Below, in pieces: positions 1,671-21,781 of a stretch of DNA of 64,000 bases. Within the stretch, counting starts at the first letter, position 1; the number at the start of each line of letters is the position of its first letter. The notes beneath the pieces were generated by a model. That model was not told the DNA's origin. It made no database searches and saw only the letters and a list, made by a program, of their open reading frames with translations. Origin of the DNA: an uncultured SAR86 cluster bacterium (GTDB lineage Bacteria; Pseudomonadota; Gammaproteobacteria; Magnimaribacterales; D2472); contig CACEZB010000004.1 of assembly GCA_902563835.1 (NCBI GenBank), positions 24,147-88,146 of the forward strand, read 5' to 3'. Both the position numbers and the translations under genes were made by a program.

Positions 1671-3869
1671 ATGCAGCTAAAACACATAAAACTATCAGGT
1701 TTTAAAAGTTTCGTCGATCCAACGAAAATATCATTTCCTACTAATATGGTTGGAGTTGTCGGTCCGAATGGATGCGGAAAATCAAATGTTATAGATGCTG
1801 TGCGTTGGGTGCTTGGAGAACTTTCAGCAAAAAATCTTCGTGGTGAATCAATGGCAGATGTTATTTTTAATGGCTCTGAAAAAAGAAAACCCTCTGGACA
1901 ATGCAGCATTGAACTTCTTTTTGATAATTCTAGCGCCAAAATTGGTGGCGAGTATGCATCTTTTAATGAAGTTTCCATTAAAAGGGTTATGACAAGAGAC
2001 GCTCAATCAGATTATTTTATTAATAATACAAAATGCAGGAGAAAAGATGTCCAAGATATTTTTCTTGGTACTGGTTTAGGCCCAAGCTCTTATGCAATTA
2101 TCGAACAGGGAATGGTTAGCAAGCTTGTAAGTGCAAAACCAGATGAACTTAGAACCCATATTGAAGAAGCTGCTGGAGTATCCAAATATAGAGAAAGAAG
2201 AAGGGAAACAGAGTCAAGAATTAAACGCACAAAAGAAAATCTCTCAAGAGTAAAAGATATTCGTGATGAAATTGGAAGACTTATTAGAAGATTAGAAAAT
2301 CAAGCCAAAGCCGCAGATAAGTACAATCAACTTAAAAAAGATAAAACAAAATTAGAGCTTGATAAAGCTATATTATTTTCGATGGAAGCAAAAAATAATC
2401 GAGATAAATTACAGAAGAAATTGGATGCGCATAATCGTGACCTGAAAATTAAAAATGCTGAATCAGAAACAATCCAATCGCAAATAGATCAATTTAGAAC
2501 TGAAAATGAGTCCCTATTGAGTGAATATGAATTAGCGCAAAAGAATTTCTATGCAGTTGGTGCAGAAATTGCAAAAAGAGAAGCCAATTTACAAAATATT
2601 AATAAATCAGAATCAGAGACTAAATATAGTCTTCAAAAAGCAAAAGATAATTATGAAAAAGCCAAAGAAACTGAGAAAAATTTTGATGAATTAAGTCCTA
2701 GTGAGAAAGCTATGCATATTCTGGATAGTATCATCCTTACAATAGATAAATTCAATATTAATAATGAAAGTATTAGAGAAAAAGCTATGGAGCTTAAAAA
2801 TTTACTTACAGAAATTTTAGATATTGCATCAGCTCAATCTAAAACATTAACTGATGAATATCTTTCTCGTCAAAATGACTTAGAAGAACAAATCGAGGAA
2901 GCAGAAAAACTTAAGAGTTCTATCCAAGATGAAATGAAAGACTTTGTTAGTAAAAGCTCAGATGCAGAGTCAATTCTAGTCGCGCTGAGACAAAAACAAT
3001 CAAAATTTAATGATGAATTAAGAAATCTAGAAAATAAAAAATCTATCGCAGATTTAGACTCTAAATCTATTTCTGAAAAAATAACAAATATTCGTCTTGA
3101 ACTTAAAACATATGAAATAAATTTAGATAATTCAAATAAAAAAATTAAGGAAGCTGGTATAGATATTGATACTGTTAATTTTTCAGATTATGAAGATACG
3201 ACATTAGATGAAATCGAAGATAGCTTAACTGCTATAGAGACTAAAATAATTAGATTGGGTGCAATTAACTTAGCTGCACCAGAAGAAATCGCGGATGAAT
3301 CAAAAAGAAAAGAAGAATTAGATGAGCAATACAATGACCTTACAGAAGCATTAGATAAACTTAATGGCGCTATTAAGAAAATTGATAACGAAACAAAAAC
3401 AATATTCAAAGATAGTTTTGATGCTGTCAATTTAAAACTTAAAGAGATGTTCCCAAAGTTATTTGGGGGAGGTGTTGCTGAGCTCACCTTAACCGATGAT
3501 GATCCATTGCATGCTGGAGTAGTTTTAATGGCAAGACCTCCAGGAAAAAAGAATTCATCTATTTCACAATTATCTGGTGGAGAAAAAGCTTTAACGGCTT
3601 TAGCTTTAGTATTTGCTATTTTTGATCTTAATCCAGCACCATTTTGCTTATTAGATGAAGTAGATGCACCTTTAGACGACTTAAACACTCTTCGATTTAT
3701 AAATATGGTTGAAGAAATGTCAAAGTCGATACAATTTATTTTTATTACTCATAATAAAGTTTCTATGGAGCGAAGTGATTATTTAATGGGAGTTACAATG
3801 CAAGAGGCTGGTGTTTCAAGAATGGTATCCGTTGACGTCAATCAAGCACTCAAACTAGCTGAATCATAA
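1671..3869 (+). CDS. smc: Chromosome segregation SMC ATPase, short form lacking a hinge domain
   Basis: The N-terminal head has Walker A GPNGCGKSNVIDAVRWVLGE and the family element EEAAGVSKYRERR near residue 165. The C-terminal head has LGAINLAAPEEI (from about residue 528), the ABC signature LSGGEKALTALAL, Walker B CLLDEVDAPLDD and the switch His in FITHNK. These match bacterial SMC, not RecN or SbcC. The length is 732 aa, against about 1150-1190 for the family. Between the heads lie only two heptad-rich arms of about 175-180 residues each (165-340 and 345-525) meeting at DELSPSEK; the roughly 150-residue glycine-rich hinge that dimerises SMC is absent. The frame is uninterrupted, so this is not a visible frameshift. 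zipA starts on the next base. Confidence 0.9.
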   Translation: MQLKHIKLSGFKSFVDPTKISFPTNMVGVVGPNGCGKSNVIDAVRWVLGELSAKNLRGESMADVIFNGSEKRKPSGQCSIELLFDNSSAKIGGEYASFNEVSIKRVMTRDAQSDYFINNTKCRRKDVQDIFLGTGLGPSSYAIIEQGMVSKLVSAKPDELRTHIEEAAGVSKYRERRRETESRIKRTKENLSRVKDIRDEIGRLIRRLENQAKAADKYNQLKKDKTKLELDKAILFSMEAKNNRDKLQKKLDAHNRDLKIKNAESETIQSQIDQFRTENESLLSEYELAQKNFYAVGAEIAKREANLQNINKSESETKYSLQKAKDNYEKAKETEKNFDELSPSEKAMHILDSIILTIDKFNINNESIREKAMELKNLLTEILDIASAQSKTLTDEYLSRQNDLEEQIEEAEKLKSSIQDEMKDFVSKSSDAESILVALRQKQSKFNDELRNLENKKSIADLDSKSISEKITNIRLELKTYEINLDNSNKKIKEAGIDIDTVNFSDYEDTTLDEIEDSLTAIETKIIRLGAINLAAPEEIADESKRKEELDEQYNDLTEALDKLNGAIKKIDNETKTIFKDSFDAVNLKLKEMFPKLFGGGVAELTLTDDDPLHAGVVLMARPPGKKNSSISQLSGGEKALTALALVFAIFDLNPAPFCLLDEVDAPLDDLNTLRFINMVEEMSKSIQFIFITHNKVSMERSDYLMGVTMQEAGVSRMVSVDVNQALKLAES

Positions 3870-15276: not shown

Positions 15277-15361
15277 GGGGATGTGGTGGAACTGGTAGAC
15301 ACGCTTGGCTTAGAACCAAGTGCCGCAAGGCGTGGGGGTTCGACTCCCTCCATCCCTACCA
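15277..15361 (+). tRNA. tRNA-Leu (anticodon TAG)
   Basis: 85 nt including encoded CCA. The acceptor stem GGGGATG pairs with CATCCCT (one G-U). The anticodon arm CTTGG-CTTAGAA-CCAAG gives TAG, reading CUN codons. A long variable arm (TGCCGCAAGGCG) marks class II, and the T arm is GGGGGTTCGACTCCCTC. The track ORFs 15084-15362 (minus) and the first 17 codons of 15320-16003 are artefacts crossing this tRNA. Confidence 0.97.
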
Positions 15362-15370
15362 AATATTATT

Positions 15371-16003
15371 ATGAGCATGAATAAAGTTGCAATTTTTGGG
15401 AAAAAAGACTCAATAGCTAAGTATGATCTTACTGACAATAAACCAGTATGGGTCGGGGAATTACCTAAAGGACAAATACCATATGTAATTGCTCAATATG
15501 AGAATTATATTCTTGTCTTTAGTTGGGCTTGGTTTGGATCAAAAATGATTCATTGTTTTCGAGAAGATTCTGGTGACTCTTTATGGTCACATTACCAAGA
15601 AACATTGCACAGCTCGATGATCCCATTTCTCCCTCATACTTTTGAAAATCACATGTACTACTTAGCATCTTCAAAAGAGGTAGCAAAATTATCATGGGAG
15701 ACTGGAAAGATTGTTTTTAGAAAAAGATTTAAAAAATCAATTTTTAATCAATATGGGTTAGGAATAATATCTGATGAAGTAGTGTTAATATCAAAAAAAG
15801 ATGCATTAATTGTTAATAAAGAAACAGGTGATACAAAATCATATCCTGAACTTGCCAAGAAATTAAACTTAAAAGAAATAACTTCAGCATTAGGAAACGG
15901 AATCACATTTATGTCTTTAATATCTTTAACTCACCCTCAAGCTACAGATGGCGGAGTTTATGGCGGTGATGGTGGAGGTGGTGGCGGAGATGGCGGAGGA
16001 TAG
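15371..16003 (+). CDS. Propeller-like hypothetical protein with Gly/Asp-rich tail
   Basis: I do not recognise this gene. The start is set at ATG 15371 (MSMNKVAIFG) because the track's start lies inside tRNA-Leu. About 190 residues contain strand-turn repeats such as AKYDLTDNKPVWVGEL, HCFREDSGDSLWSHY and AKLSWETGKIVFRKRF, reminiscent of PQQ/quinoprotein-like beta-propeller blades (x-x-x-D-x-x-T-G-x-x-x-W). There is no signal peptide, so it is likely cytoplasmic. The last ~17 residues are GGVYGGDGGGGGGDGGG, a low-complexity, locally G-rich tail that is conspicuous in this AT-rich DNA. Confidence 0.65.
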   Translation: MSMNKVAIFGKKDSIAKYDLTDNKPVWVGELPKGQIPYVIAQYENYILVFSWAWFGSKMIHCFREDSGDSLWSHYQETLHSSMIPFLPHTFENHMYYLASSKEVAKLSWETGKIVFRKRFKKSIFNQYGLGIISDEVVLISKKDALIVNKETGDTKSYPELAKKLNLKEITSALGNGITFMSLISLTHPQATDGGVYGGDGGGGGGDGGG

Positions 16004-16031
16004 ATCTATATATAACTAAAAGGAATAAAAT

Positions 16032-16529
16032 ATGGAACCAGATTTTAGAGCATTACAAGTTTTGGCTGAAGTATCGCTTGGTATTGTTGGGTTTTCTGCA
16101 ATACTCATAGGACTCAGTAGATCAAAGAAAGGATTTAGCAAACCAGATAATTTTAGAATACAACTATTAACCTTTTCTGCATTTGGGGCAATGTTTTGTG
16201 CTCTTTTGCCATTTGCAATTTTTAACCAAAATAATATAGATTTAAGCTGGGCAATTGTAAATTGGACATTATGTTTATACTCAACAATAGGGCTTTTAAT
16301 TTTTCCAAGACGAGTTTTTGATTTAAGAAGAGAGGGATATAAGGACTTGTTTCCATTCAAGATTATCGCCTTACAAGTTGGAATATTAATAACTATATTC
16401 ATTTTGTCAGGATCTATGATCTTGGGTTTGATTGATCAGAAAAATAATTTTTATATATTCTGCTTAATGTTATTTATTGTTCAAAGCACTGTTGCATTTA
16501 TTAGAACGATGTTTGTGAGAGTTGAATAA
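16032..16529 (+). CDS. Four-helix membrane protein of unknown function
   Basis: 165 residues beginning MEPDFRALQVLAEVSLGIVGFSAILIGL, with hydrophobic segments at about 10-28, 43-62, 76-95, 111-134 and 138-157 separated by basic loops (SRSKKGF, FPRRVFDLRREG). It is not assigned to a named family. It lies 28 bases after the Gly/Asp-tail gene on the same strand and may share its transcript. No enzymatic motif is visible. Confidence 0.6.
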   Translation: MEPDFRALQVLAEVSLGIVGFSAILIGLSRSKKGFSKPDNFRIQLLTFSAFGAMFCALLPFAIFNQNNIDLSWAIVNWTLCLYSTIGLLIFPRRVFDLRREGYKDLFPFKIIALQVGILITIFILSGSMILGLIDQKNNFYIFCLMLFIVQSTVAFIRTMFVRVE

Positions 16530-16533
16530 TTTG

Positions 16534-16561
16534 TTTACAAAACCTTGATTATCTATATACT
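16534..16561 (+). promoter_or_regulatory. Candidate sigma-70 promoter of the TonB-receptor leader
   Basis: TTTACA (16534-16539, one mismatch to TTGACA), a 16-base spacer and TATACT (16556-16561, one mismatch to TATAAT) lie just after the upstream stop codon. Transcription would start near 16568, giving a leader of about 113 nt before the receptor ATG. It is the best promoter match in the gap. Confidence 0.55.
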
Positions 16562-16567
16562 CTTAAT

Positions 16568-16680
16568 TGTGAAAAATTTATTGATACATCGAAGCCGGGG
16601 TCAGTCAAGTTAGCTGGTTCTGTTCTTTGTTGAATTTGACCCAGCAGTTGCTGGGTTTTTTTGTTTTGGAGGATTAAATT
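16568..16680 (+). promoter_or_regulatory. Candidate attenuator/riboswitch-type leader of the TonB receptor gene
   Basis: The leader contains several mutually exclusive pairings. GTCAAGTT (16604-16611) pairs with AATTTGAC (16633-16640) as an 8-bp stem. GGGTCA (16598-16603) can instead pair with TGACCC (16637-16642), and GCTGG (16613-16617) is a copy of the terminator's 3' arm and can pair with CCAGC (16641-16645). The last two would disrupt the terminator. The intrinsic terminator ends 18 bases before the receptor ATG, leaving no room for a promoter downstream, so expression should require readthrough. It matches no riboswitch class I know (no B12 box, TPP or SAM core). Confidence 0.55.
16640..16662 (+). 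terminator. Intrinsic terminator in front of the TonB receptor start codon
   Basis: CCCAGC-AGTT-GCTGGG, a perfect 6-bp G/C-rich stem with a tetraloop, is followed by seven T. The Shine-Dalgarno GGAGG (16668-16672) and ATG (16681) follow directly. Confidence 0.8.
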
Positions 16681-19062
16681 ATGAACAAAATAAATTTATT
16701 TAAATGCTTCTTTCTTTTGATACCAATTTTGCTGGTTGCTCAAGAGCAGGAAGTTGAAGAGGTTATTGTTACTGCTAATAAAAAAGCTGAAACTGTTCAA
16801 GAAATACCAATGAATATTTCTGTGATTACCGAATCAGCATTAGAAGAAAGAGGAATAATGAACCCTGAAGATTATTTAAGATCTATCGCAGGTGTATCTA
16901 CACCAGGTGGCTCTAATTATTATACCTTTAGAGGATTAAATACTTCGACTTCACAGCGTTCCTCAGGAACCACTTCAACTTATATAGATGAAGTAAGTGG
17001 TTCATTAATGGGATTATTTGATGTTGAAAGAATAGAGGTTCTAAGAGGACCTCAAGGAACGTTATATGGTTCAAATGCTATTGGTGGAACTATTAGATAT
17101 ATTACAAATAAACCAGATTCAAGTGCATCTTATGGAAAGATAAGAGTTGGATATGGTAACAAAGTAAAAGCTGATGACCCTGAAACAAGTATTGAAATGA
17201 TGTATAACCTTCCTCTTTCTGATAGTTTAGCTGTTAGAGCTGTATATTCTCAGTTAGTTTCACCTGGAATATATAAAAATATTCAAACTGGTAATACAGT
17301 AGGTGAAGAGGATGACTCACAGCTTATGGTGACATTAGCTTTTGATGATGGTGGTAAGCTTACTGGAAGTTTAAGATATATGAATGTTAATAATAAAGCA
17401 TACGGTATATTAGAACCTGGTCAGAGCAAGCCTGGAAGTGCTGATGTTTATGTTTCAGACTGTCCGCAGGCTTCAAGTTGGTGGTATAACTGGGATGGAG
17501 ATCCTACTTGCGCACGTTTAAGTGCTATTTCTAATTTTGCAGCCACAGAGGCTGATTATCCTAATGGCAGCTCTGTTCTTACTAATTATGATCCAAGATT
17601 TGCACATGCATTGGCTGTGGATGAGAATGAGGATATTACTAAAGAAGTATTTATTGCAAATATTAAATATGATTTTGGTGTTTTTGATGCAAATTTGATT
17701 ATTTCTGATAAGACAACTAGTGAAGACGCTGTGACAGATTGGGCTAGAATTGATATGGATGATTATGTTCCGGCACCACTGATTGTAGATGGTGATGAAT
17801 ATTACCAAGAAACAACAGAGCTAAGATTAGTATCTAAGCCTGGAAAGTTTGAGTGGACGGTTGGATATTATAATTACAAGTTTAATGAAGAGCCAAACTC
17901 AATCTCACAAACTCAATATGCAATTGATGAGTATTGGTTAGATTATGTTACTTCAATAGCTGCAGGTGTTGATCCAGCTGTATATGATGCTACTGCTTAT
18001 TGTCCTCCATTTTGTGAGGGGCATTTAGGTTACCCGTATCTATATTATGCTTCATATACAGAATATAACGAGCAAGAAGAAACATCTTTATATGGGCAGT
18101 TTGACTATAACGTAAATGAAAAATTAACTCTTACATTTGGTATAAGAGATTATGAAATTAAAGATAAATCTAAATCATATCAATATGGTATTTTCTATAT
18201 GGATAGTAATGGATGCGATGGAAATGATCCTGCAGGAACAGATTGTTCAGAGTTATCTGGAAAAGAAGCAGATACAAGAATGAAATATGCAGCTAGCTAT
18301 AAAATTAATGATGATTTAACTTTATATGCTACAAAAGCGGCAGGGTACAGGCCTGGAGGCAACCAATCTCCTCTTCCTCCTTTTTGTAGTAGTGATGAAA
18401 CTGCACAGGAAACATGGGGGCCAAGATTTAATTCAGATGAAGCTGAGACAACAGAATTTGGTGTTAAATCGAGAGGTCAAAATTATACAGCGAATGTAAC
18501 ATATTTCGATGTAGCTTGGGATGGCATTATTATTTCTGTAACCCCTGGTTGCGGTTGGTCATATAACTTTAATGGCGGTAAAGCTGAAACTTCTGGTTGG
18601 GAAGTTGATTTTACTTATGCATTAAATGATGAAATTTCTCTTGATTTTGCTGGAAGCTCTATGACAGCAGAAACATCAATAGACATAGCTTCTTTGGGTG
18701 CTGCAGCTGGCGATAGATTGCCAAATACTGTTGAAACTCAATGGAATTTAGGACTTGTTTATGACACTACAATTATGTCATATCCATCATATGCGAGACT
18801 TGATATGAATTATTATGGCGATAGTTTTAATACTTTTGCAGAAAATCCAAATACAAGCTCTCCTGACTATACTAAGATTAATTTTAATTTAGGGTTAGAT
18901 ATAAACGAAAATTCAAAATTACAATTATCAATAGATAATTTAACCGATAAAAGAACTGAAGCATATATTTATGCTGTAGATGACACATCTTGGAGACCAA
19001 GAAACTGGATGCAGTGGATTCCTCCAAGAACTGTATCAGTAAAGTATAGCTATAGCTTTTAA
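16681..19062 (+). CDS. TonB-dependent outer membrane receptor
   Basis: 793-residue outer membrane transporter. It has a signal peptide (to about residue 21, VAQEQE), a TonB box EEVIVTA, a plug domain (QEIPMNISVITESALEERG, RGLNTSTSQ, VERIEVLRGPQGTLYGSNAIGGTIRYITNKP) and a 22-strand barrel ending in aromatic SVKYSYSF. Several loops carry paired cysteines (CPQASSWW...PTC, CPPFC, CDGNDPAGTDC), probably extracellular disulfides. The plug type is the one common for uptake of complex organic ligands in marine gammaproteobacteria. An excellent GGAGG lies nine bases before ATG. The upstream leader and the downstream P450 and MFS genes suggest a regulated uptake-degradation unit; the ligand is unknown. 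Confidence 0.93.
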   Translation: MNKINLFKCFFLLIPILLVAQEQEVEEVIVTANKKAETVQEIPMNISVITESALEERGIMNPEDYLRSIAGVSTPGGSNYYTFRGLNTSTSQRSSGTTSTYIDEVSGSLMGLFDVERIEVLRGPQGTLYGSNAIGGTIRYITNKPDSSASYGKIRVGYGNKVKADDPETSIEMMYNLPLSDSLAVRAVYSQLVSPGIYKNIQTGNTVGEEDDSQLMVTLAFDDGGKLTGSLRYMNVNNKAYGILEPGQSKPGSADVYVSDCPQASSWWYNWDGDPTCARLSAISNFAATEADYPNGSSVLTNYDPRFAHALAVDENEDITKEVFIANIKYDFGVFDANLIISDKTTSEDAVTDWARIDMDDYVPAPLIVDGDEYYQETTELRLVSKPGKFEWTVGYYNYKFNEEPNSISQTQYAIDEYWLDYVTSIAAGVDPAVYDATAYCPPFCEGHLGYPYLYYASYTEYNEQEETSLYGQFDYNVNEKLTLTFGIRDYEIKDKSKSYQYGIFYMDSNGCDGNDPAGTDCSELSGKEADTRMKYAASYKINDDLTLYATKAAGYRPGGNQSPLPPFCSSDETAQETWGPRFNSDEAETTEFGVKSRGQNYTANVTYFDVAWDGIIISVTPGCGWSYNFNGGKAETSGWEVDFTYALNDEISLDFAGSSMTAETSIDIASLGAAAGDRLPNTVETQWNLGLVYDTTIMSYPSYARLDMNYYGDSFNTFAENPNTSSPDYTKINFNLGLDINENSKLQLSIDNLTDKRTEAYIYAVDDTSWRPRNWMQWIPPRTVSVKYSYSF

Positions 19063-19151: not shown

Positions 19152-20510
19152 ATGTCAAAAGGATTTATCTTATCTGATGAAGTTCTCAATCATGAGATCA
19201 ACAATCCTGCGTATAAAGAAAAATATAACTTTAATCCTAATGATCAATTAAACGATTTAGATTTATTTACAAAAGGTCAGCCCTTTAGTCTTTATAAAGA
19301 TCTTAGAGAAAACGCTCCTGTTTTTTATCATGAACCTATGCCCACAGACCCAGAACCAGGGTACTGGGTTTTAACAAGATATGAAGATATAAAATATGTT
19401 TCAATGAATCCAAAAATATTTTCATCTCAATATGCAACTGGAAATTTATTAACGCTCGGAAGAGAAGATAATAGACACCCTAAATTATTTAAATCAACTA
19501 TAGATCATATGCTTAATCTCGATGGTGAAATGCATCTTGGCTTAAGAAAAGAACATATGCCTTTTTTTAAACCTGATTATATTAATGACCTGCGAAAAAA
19601 AGTATCATCAAAAGTTAGCTTATTATTAGATAATATTGCGCCTTTAGGAGAATGTAACTTAGTAAGTGAAGTCTCCCAACAATTGCCGATATTTACACTT
19701 TCAGAAATTTTAGGAATACCTGAAGAAGATAGACAAAAATTAGTATCTTGGATGGAGTTTTTAGAATTAGCTCAGTATTTCACTTATGAAATGATAAAAG
19801 AACAAAATGAAGGTAAAACAGACTCAACCCCTGATCCAGCAATGATAGATATGTTTAATGCAATGGTTGATGAGATGTTTGATTATGGAAGATTTATTTT
19901 AAATAGCAAAAGAGAAGATCCATCGGAAGACTTATTAAGTGCAATAGCAAATGCTGAAATAGAAGGTGAGAAGTTATCACAAGAATTTTTAGATGGATCT
20001 TGGTTGCTAATTATTTTTGCAGGAAATGATACGACAAGGAATACTTTGAGCGGAGGCATTAAACTTTTATATGACAATCAAACACAAAAAGAACTATTAA
20101 TAGATGATTTGGAACTTCTTCCTAATTTTGTAAATGAAACAGTTAGATGTGTTTCACCAGTAATTCATATGAGAAGAACAACTCTTGAAGAAACAGAAAT
20201 AAATGGACAAAAAATTGGACCTCATGAAAAAATAGCACTTTGGTATGGTGCAGCAAATAGAGATCCAGAAATTTTTGAAAATCCAGATGATTTTAATATT
20301 TTAAGAGAGAATGCAGATAAACATCTTGCATTTGGCTTTGGAAGGCATTCATGTATAGGTAAGCCAGTTGCATTAATGCAATTACAAGAATTTTATTCAC
20401 AATTTTTAACCAGATTCCCTGATTTTGAGATGAATGGTAAATGGAAAGTTGCTCCAAACAACTTTGTTCATGCTATACAAGAGATGCCAATTAAATTTTC
20501 TCCAAAATGA
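19152..20510 (+). CDS. Cytochrome P450 monooxygenase
   Basis: 452-residue soluble bacterial P450. The heme-binding loop is FGFGRHSCIG with the proximal ligand Cys about 401; the K-helix ExxR is ETVR; the I-helix oxygen-activation motif is AGNDTTRNT. There is no membrane anchor, so it needs a ferredoxin and reductase that are not in this window. The sequence resembles the CYP groups that hydroxylate steroids, terpenes or alkyl chains, but the substrate cannot be assigned. The MFS gene starts inside its stop (ATGA), so the two are co-translated. Confidence 0.92.
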   Translation: MSKGFILSDEVLNHEINNPAYKEKYNFNPNDQLNDLDLFTKGQPFSLYKDLRENAPVFYHEPMPTDPEPGYWVLTRYEDIKYVSMNPKIFSSQYATGNLLTLGREDNRHPKLFKSTIDHMLNLDGEMHLGLRKEHMPFFKPDYINDLRKKVSSKVSLLLDNIAPLGECNLVSEVSQQLPIFTLSEILGIPEEDRQKLVSWMEFLELAQYFTYEMIKEQNEGKTDSTPDPAMIDMFNAMVDEMFDYGRFILNSKREDPSEDLLSAIANAEIEGEKLSQEFLDGSWLLIIFAGNDTTRNTLSGGIKLLYDNQTQKELLIDDLELLPNFVNETVRCVSPVIHMRRTTLEETEINGQKIGPHEKIALWYGAANRDPEIFENPDDFNILRENADKHLAFGFGRHSCIGKPVALMQLQEFYSQFLTRFPDFEMNGKWKVAPNNFVHAIQEMPIKFSPK

Positions 20511-21781
20511 GAATCCCATATAGATTCAAAGTTATTTTTTTATCATTCATTGCTGTATTTATTTGCTATATAGATAGAGTAAATATTTCTGTAGCAATCA
20601 TACCCATGCAAGAACAATTTGGGTGGTCTGAATTACAAGTAGGAATAGTTTTAGGAACTTTCTATGTTGGATATATGATTAGCATGACTTTAGGTGGTTA
20701 TCTAGCAGATAAATATGGAGGCAAGAAAGTTCTTGGCTATGCATTAATAATTTGGTCATTATTTACAATTATCACTCCATTTTTTGCATACAGTGGATTA
20801 TGGTGGCTTATTTTTATAAGAATCTTATTAGGTTTAGGAGAAGGGGTAACCTTTCCGGCTTGGCATTCTATTTATGCCAGATGGATTCCATTTAATGAAA
20901 GAACAAGGGCAGTAGGTTTTACCAATAGCGGAATAGCAGCAGGTACAGTATTTGGATATGTTGTAGCAGCTATCATAATAGCGAATTATTCTTGGGAGTG
21001 GGTTTTTTATTCTTTTGGGCTAATGGGTATATTTTGGTACTTATTTTGGCAGAGAATTGTTACATCTTATCCAGAGGATAATAAAAATCTATCAAATAAT
21101 GAATTGCAATTAATAAAAGCTGAAGCACCCTCAAATTCAACACCTCCGTCAATACCATTTCTAAAATTAATTAAAAATTGGCCTTTCTTAGCAATAGCAG
21201 TTGCAACTTTTTGTAATAATTGGGCTTTATTCACATTTATTTCTTATTTGCCAAAATTTATCAATGCTCCAATTGCTGATGGTGGAATGGGTATTGATTT
21301 AGGATCTAGTGCATTTATTTATTCATTATTAATGCCAAGTCTTGTTGCGATGTTTTCACTTATTTTAGGTGGTTATATATCAGATAGTTTTATAAAAAAA
21401 GGATATAAGGTAATTAATGTTAGAAAAACTGTTAATTCAATTGGATTTTTTGGATCAGCTATTTTCTTATATTTAATTTCTCTGCAAGATACTTTATTCA
21501 ATGCAATTTTTTTATTATGCCTAATTCAACTCTGTACAGGTATTTGCGCAGGAGGATTTGGAGTAAATCATGCTGATTTAGGTCCAAAATATACAGGAAC
21601 TTTAGTTGGTATTTCTGGAAGCATAGGTATGATAGCAGCGATTTTCAGCCCAATGGTTGCAGGCTTGGTTCTCGAAGTTACTAGATCCTGGGATGTTATA
21701 TTTTATATTTGTTCTGGTATTTTATTATTTGGCGGCCTTTTTTATCTTAAATTTGGAAGCGCTGACAGACAATTTAGTTAA
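20507..21781 (+). CDS. MFS transporter, ACS (anion:cation symporter)-like
   Basis: 424 residues with 12 predicted helices. The N-half reads ICYIDRVNISVAIIPM, GYLADKYGGKKVLGYALI (the MFS loop 2-3 motif G-x-x-x-D-x-x-G-G-x-x) and RILLGLGEGVTFPAWHSIYARWIP, a pattern of the ACS/SLC17 family, which takes up organic anions with protons or sodium. It overlaps the P450 gene by four bases. It may import or export the P450 substrate or product. Its 3' end overlaps the convergent thioredoxin-like gene by eight bases. Confidence 0.88.
   Translation: MRIPYRFKVIFLSFIAVFICYIDRVNISVAIIPMQEQFGWSELQVGIVLGTFYVGYMISMTLGGYLADKYGGKKVLGYALIIWSLFTIITPFFAYSGLWWLIFIRILLGLGEGVTFPAWHSIYARWIPFNERTRAVGFTNSGIAAGTVFGYVVAAIIIANYSWEWVFYSFGLMGIFWYLFWQRIVTSYPEDNKNLSNNELQLIKAEAPSNSTPPSIPFLKLIKNWPFLAIAVATFCNNWALFTFISYLPKFINAPIADGGMGIDLGSSAFIYSLLMPSLVAMFSLILGGYISDSFIKKGYKVINVRKTVNSIGFFGSAIFLYLISLQDTLFNAIFLLCLIQLCTGICAGGFGVNHADLGPKYTGTLVGISGSIGMIAAIFSPMVAGLVLEVTRSWDVIFYICSGILLFGGLFYLKFGSADRQFS

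Follow-up and report, generated by a model that had tools for sequence, protein, structure and literature searches.

The TonB-dependent receptor gene examined here very probably stands behind a ribosome-mediated attenuator of the trpL type, apparently leaderless and reading an arginine codon, at a locus where a biosynthetic operon appears to have been replaced by the receptor gene. The window, by which we mean the whole stretch of DNA that was analysed, comprises 64,000 nt from an uncultured SAR86 cluster bacterium (GCA_902563835.1, contig CACEZB010000004.1, positions 24,147 to 88,146, forward), whose source genome is 73% complete. Its receptor is 99% identical to the receptor of SAR86 single-cell genome AG-365-D17 and about 86% identical to that of SAR86A. 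Gene names used here are family-model assignments, and the features of the locus are as follows.

15277..15361, + strand: tRNA-Leu (anticodon TAG), found by ARAGORN; left syntenic landmark of both the arginine-operon and the receptor version of the locus
16534..16539, + strand: -35 element TTTACA, from the sequence scan
16556..16561, + strand: -10 element TATACT, 7 nt upstream of the leader start codon
16569..16613, + strand: leader ORF with GTG start, 14 codons, MKNLLIHRSRGQSS and stop; frame kept in homologues
16583..16594, + strand: 5' arm of the 1:2 (anti-antiterminator) stem, pairing with about 16625-16635
16590..16592, + strand: arginine codon CGA (codon 8), read from the sequence
16596..16598, + strand: putative control codon CGG (codon 10), present in 50/50 leaders and the rarest sense codon of the window
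16613..16625, + strand: region 2 (GCUGGUUCUG...), 5' arm of the predicted antiterminator, starting at the final base of the leader stop
16632..16645, + strand: region 3, 3' arm of the predicted antiterminator, whose GACCCAGC (16638-16645) doubles as the 5' arm of the terminator
16638..16662, + strand: intrinsic terminator, regions 3:4, with seven T, from terminator scan and folding
16668..16672, + strand: GGAGG, likely ribosome-binding site of the receptor gene, from the sequence
16681..19062, + strand: TonB-dependent receptor, 793 aa, the presumed regulated gene (plug PF07715, barrel PF00593)
19152..20510, + strand: cytochrome P450, from a gene-family match
20507..21781, + strand: MFS transporter, whose orthologue lies directly after argH in relative G044; right landmark of the swapped segment

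The two promoter elements are separated by a spacer of 16 nt, the terminator stem GACCCAGC-AGTT-GCTGGGTT occupies 16638-16657 with its seven T at 16656-16662, and 18 bases (16663-16680) lie between the T run and the receptor ATG at 16681, an arrangement that the first-pass annotation had described and that we confirm. Scanning the region yields three terminator-like sites, compared to 0.2 expected in shuffles. The further proposal of that annotation, an attenuator through which the receptor is expressed by readthrough only, is supported by the homologues: in 49 genomes the same promoter-terminator-ATG layout is found, with the leader before one of two unrelated genes, and the end of the terminator falls 14-37 nt before the ATG in every leader. 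The P450 gene is probably cotranscribed with the receptor.

A BLASTN search of the leader against 100 relatives returned clear matches in the same family, and their alignment was built into a covariance model, which gives one strong match each in 50 of the 107 genomes of this SAR86 family (E below 1e-5). At the order level (203 genomes), the best match outside the family reached an E value of 9.6e-4 and no credible leader was found; this match (L071) reads as the terminator at another gene's end and was rejected, and ten of the weak model matches (E from 9.6e-4 to 0.011) proved, when fetched, to be ordinary terminators ending other genes. Under strict filters, the class-level search of 369 genomes matched only two, both from the window's own genus. 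The hairpin ACCCAGC-N4-GCTGGGT recurs after other genes of the family (L072, L073, L077, L078 and similar), one of them an ORF that by eye resembles proteorhodopsin, and it seems to be a common terminator in this clade.

What the first-pass annotation missed is the leader ORF (16569-16613, ending in TAG) and its arginine codons. Across 47 homologous leaders that could be parsed (39 distinct ORFs), this frame holds no in-frame stop in 544 codons, compared to 70/505 and 49/505 in the other two frames of the same leaders (together 119/1010), counts that ignore the relatedness of the sequences. The ORFs begin with ATG or GTG, end at region 2 in TAG or TAA, and are 14 codons long in 36 of the 39 distinct cases; L028 has 10 codons, or 13 if begun at an upstream in-frame GTG, and in L026 the register changes by one base somewhere from CGG to region 2, so that the ORF ends at a new TAA in frame. 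Three leaders outside the automatically parsed set (L023, L024 and L063), read with an earlier script or by hand, fit the same pattern. CGG stands four codons from the stop in 45/47 parsed leaders and three codons from it in the other two.

The codon itself is used only 3 times among the 18,884 codons of the window, with AGA used 445 times. In the receptor class, the residue before the control arginine varies (I, N, K, S, E, R) and the codon CGG is constant. AGA directly precedes CGG in 24 of the 29 nonreceptor leaders and the order is CGG AGA in three more, so that tandem arginine is found in 27/29 nonreceptor leaders versus 2/21 receptor leaders, a comparison between related sequences for which Fisher's P is nominal. 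Since only two receptor leaders keep the tandem, arginine sensitivity may be reduced in this class. The constancy of CGG need not be purely a codon effect, because CGG is also able to pair with CUG of region 2; yet CAG, which would pair better, is seen in no leader. In the near-complete relative G016, 33 tRNA genes were found, with arginine anticodons TCT, TCG and ACG and none with CCG, and because of this CGG would be read via wobble of tRNA-Arg(UCG). No Shine-Dalgarno or other ribosome-binding site is seen in the sequence before the leader ORF. The transcript is apparently leaderless or near-leaderless, as in almost every leader 6-9 nt separate the -10 hexamer from the start codon, a distance at which a sigma-70 start would be expected, and we assume leaderless mRNA translation.

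With respect to the alternative pairings, all those described in the first-pass annotation can form in the window, and their conservation is unequal: across the 50 homologues only GCTGG (region 2) with CCAGC (region 3) is general, and the pairings of GGGTCA and of GTCAAGTT with AATTTGAC are restricted to the window sequence and two near-identical relatives. Among the outcomes that the annotation had named as refuting its proposal were a lack of conserved alternative pairings in homologues and an Rfam match to a plain sRNA terminator; the GCTGG pairing is conserved, and no such Rfam match was found. The free energy of the window antiterminator is matched by about 0.1% of dinucleotide shuffles and its pairing probability by 12%, and the free energy of the 2:3 segment lies below the shuffle mean in 47/47 leaders. 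The fold of the whole leader is by itself unexceptional (z = −1.48), and the case therefore rests on comparison. RNAalifold on a MAFFT alignment recovers the terminator and three further pairs only, with almost no covariation, owing to misalignment of the spacer that precedes region 3; we examined the outer 1:2 stem instead by swapping arms between leaders, where own arms pair better than swapped ones (permutation P = 5e-5, with one leader per peptide and relatedness not removed).

Folding of the 47 leaders in defined ribosome states, with a footprint assumed to end 12 nt past the first base of the A-site codon, gives mutually exclusive outcomes, the antiterminator being freed with the ribosome at CGG and masked with the ribosome at the stop. 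With the ribosome at CGG and before region 4 exists, the mean 2:3 pairing probability is 0.99 (0.997 in receptor leaders and 0.990 in nonreceptor leaders, with a minimum of 0.747 in the latter). With the ribosome at the stop, it is 0.003 and that of the terminator is 1.0. Once region 4 is present, equilibrium favors the terminator on average even with the ribosome at CGG (P of about 0.8), and for this reason the modeled switch must be kinetic, as for trp.

Like the trp, his, and leu attenuators, the leader thus combines a short ORF carrying pathway codons, an intrinsic terminator, and a predicted exclusive antiterminator, from which we infer the following course. Transcription would begin with the leader start codon or immediately ahead of it, and a ribosome would translate 14 codons including CGG (in the window, CGA and CGG). 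With ample arginyl-tRNA, it would reach UAG and cover region 2, the 3:4 terminator would form, and transcription would stop before the receptor. When arginyl-tRNA is short, the ribosome would stall at CGG, which 12 nt separate from the stop, and region 2, left uncovered, could pair with region 3 ahead of the synthesis of region 4; this would block the terminator and allow the receptor to be transcribed, probably together with the P450 and MFS genes. If no ribosome is present, 1:2 pairing would tend to hold region 2 and favor termination. The ancestral target would be an arginine biosynthetic operon, lost in the window lineage, with the receptor now behind the same element.

The leader precedes N-acetylornithine carbamoyltransferase (argF′) in 28 genomes and a TonB-dependent receptor in 21, including that of the window; the gene behind L014, for example, is argF′ by NF003384 (518.8 bits, cut-off 288). 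Among the 107 family genomes, argF′ is present in 47, of which 19 belong to genus g9 and the other 28 all carry the leader. The full operon order, argF′-argG-argB/A-argC-argH, was read in G044, G005, and G141, and for the other genomes we rely on whether and where argF′, argG, argC, or argH occurs. The tRNA-Leu adjoins the leader in most homologous loci, and in G044 the order runs tRNA-Leu, leader, argF′, argG, argB/A, argC, argH, MFS, a thioredoxin-like gene, a 130-aa gene, and an exchanger. Left and right, the flanks of the window match those of G044 (43-63% identity); the receptor and P450 stand where G044 has the arginine genes, and two extra ORFs lie between tRNA and leader. The MFS gene is an older neighbor of the locus and not a partner that arrived with the receptor. 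The two ORFs (window 15320-16529) encode 227 aa (weakly PQQ/BamB-like) and 165 aa (no family), and in several relatives a BamB-like gene sits between receptor and P450 instead.

In the 21 receptor-plus-leader genomes, no match to argF′ was found, nor did any match to argG, argH, or argC pass the cut-off; those at least 90% complete include G002, G008, G012, G016, and G030. Because these arginine genes are absent, the receptor lineage would be auxotrophic for arginine. Within the genus, G005, G027, and G029 keep argF′ with the leader and have no receptor, and ten members have neither the argF′-leader nor the receptor-leader arrangement. G014 carries an isolated argC-like gene (L175, 5580-6473) with no other arginine genes nearby and is without argF′, argG, and argH. 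The arginine-operon arrangement is found in six genera and the receptor arrangement in one, which suggests that the former is ancestral. An ArgR-controlled regulon would need an ArgR encoded in the genome, and none of the 107 family genomes has one above the Pfam cut-off, in a search whose positive control worked.

Several loci show other arrangements. In G141 (L135, 1330-9823), tRNA-Leu is followed by a receptor that lacks a leader of its own and then by the leader with the full arginine operon. In G037 (L172, 2275-6220), tRNA-Leu, receptor, and MFS are found with neither leader nor arginine genes. G129 (L171, about 3420-3620, minus strand) has an intact-looking leader directly before an MFS gene that lacks its 5′ end, and the arginine operon is absent. 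In genus g9 (L081-L098), argF′ stands without the window-type leader, and a different ORF lies 35-41 nt upstream. In L086, L087, L088, L091, L093, L094, and L098 this ORF has about 37-42 codons and its peptide ends in KRRRRSI or similar (AGA AGA CGT AGA TCT ATC stop), and in L081-L083, L085, L089, L090, and L095 the ORF is by eye the 3′ end of a panD-like gene, with PTQRIRSL/V or PTQRLRSL. This upstream ORF is possibly a second, translation-coupled arginine leader.

The first-pass annotation had raised the possibility of a new riboswitch or a protein-controlled switch. A metabolite riboswitch would take the conserved CGGG...UAGCUGG nucleotides as an aptamer and the ORF as incidental, and in its favor there is covariation in the stem preceding region 3, and several nucleotides hardly vary. 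However, the positions that do not vary belong to a codon, to the stop region, and to the terminator, and the frame is kept in all leaders while the stop itself varies between TAG and TAA; moreover, the three leaders with CGG AGA instead of AGA CGG keep the two arginines and not the nucleotides. No aptamer is conserved among the homologues, which share a reading frame and an arginine codon instead, and no Rfam riboswitch, T-box, or leader family matches the leader at gathering score, so that we consider this reading very unlikely. Equally improbable, in our view, is a SpeFL-like sensor in which the nascent peptide stalls the ribosome by binding arginine or ornithine within the exit tunnel. Tandem arginine with an upstream Q/H does recur, as in the SpeFL core HIRRT (PMC6386406), but the peptide residues vary widely where the codon CGG does not, and the Q/H codons coincide with a base-paired arm. 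Both the peptides and the downstream genes differ from the HIRRTxHIMM core and the ornithine decarboxylase of SpeFL/orf34.

Slightly less probable again is that the promoter and terminator belong to an independent small RNA gene and that the downstream genes are transcribed otherwise. The terminated leader would measure about 95 nt and shows a weak PrrF-like match; this match (22.6 bits, gathering score 90), like that to STnc480 on the other strand, was rejected as a terminator resemblance. Such a gene would leave the alternative 2:3 pairing and the ORF without a role, and the terminator lies just before the ATG of two unrelated genes in every case. That the leader is a vestige left behind by the lost arginine operon and now does nothing at the receptor appears similarly far-fetched: 19/21 receptor leaders are without tandem arginine and the G129 leader precedes a truncated MFS gene, but all 21 receptor leaders retain CGG, the frame, the position of the stop, the antiterminator, and the terminator despite diverged neighboring codons.

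SAR86 bacteria are abundant and largely uncultured, and they carry many TonB-dependent receptors with substrates not known. With codons that reveal its signal, a regulator such as this would give a direct clue to one of these receptors, and the leader further suggests possible control of arginine genes in a lineage without detectable ArgR. The locus would also capture the replacement of a biosynthetic operon by a receptor gene with the regulator retained. More tentatively, and to our mind at somewhat less than an even chance, the attenuator was kept as the operon was swapped so that auxotrophic SAR86 induce the receptor on arginine shortage and import arginine or an organic-nitrogen source through it, under an arginine-specific, leaderless, intrinsic-terminator attenuator of a kind undescribed in the literature searched. 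Compared with solved structures, the receptor matched in its plug region only, to varied receptors, which is uninformative for substrate, and the neighboring P450 and MFS genes do not by themselves suggest arginine.

In the open-access literature searched, we found no attenuator that couples arginine codons to an intrinsic terminator, and the known systems each share part of the design. Arginine is sensed by the consecutive AGG CGG codons of the Salmonella orf34/speFL leader of speF (PMC6386406), which likewise has two adjacent arginine codons but controls a decarboxylase by way of Rho, RNase G, and translation, with no intrinsic-terminator switch. The rare arginine codons of the Staphylococcus aureus leader peptide rbfL also sense arginine (PMC13009471), whereas there pausing blocks a ribosome-binding site, control is translational, and the effect is repression. 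The uORFC-8-2 motif of cysS in Rhodobacterales (PMC8632094) is, like the present case, a ribosome-mediated attenuator predicted by comparison, and it too has tandem control codons, there for cysteine and before a tRNA-synthetase gene. In Sinorhizobium meliloti, the attenuator RNA begins at its 5′ end with the leaderless ORF of a 14-aa leader peptide (trpL/rnTrpL; PMC7298713), with Trp codons and trpE(G) downstream. Escherichia coli trpL (PMC1183508) is alike in layout: its peptide likewise has 14 residues, its tandem control codons fall near codons 10-11, its stop codon lies at region 2, and 2:3 pairing competes with 3:4 pairing. The SAR86 element differs from it in its arginine control codons, in having no visible ribosome-binding site, and in preceding a receptor as well as a biosynthetic operon.
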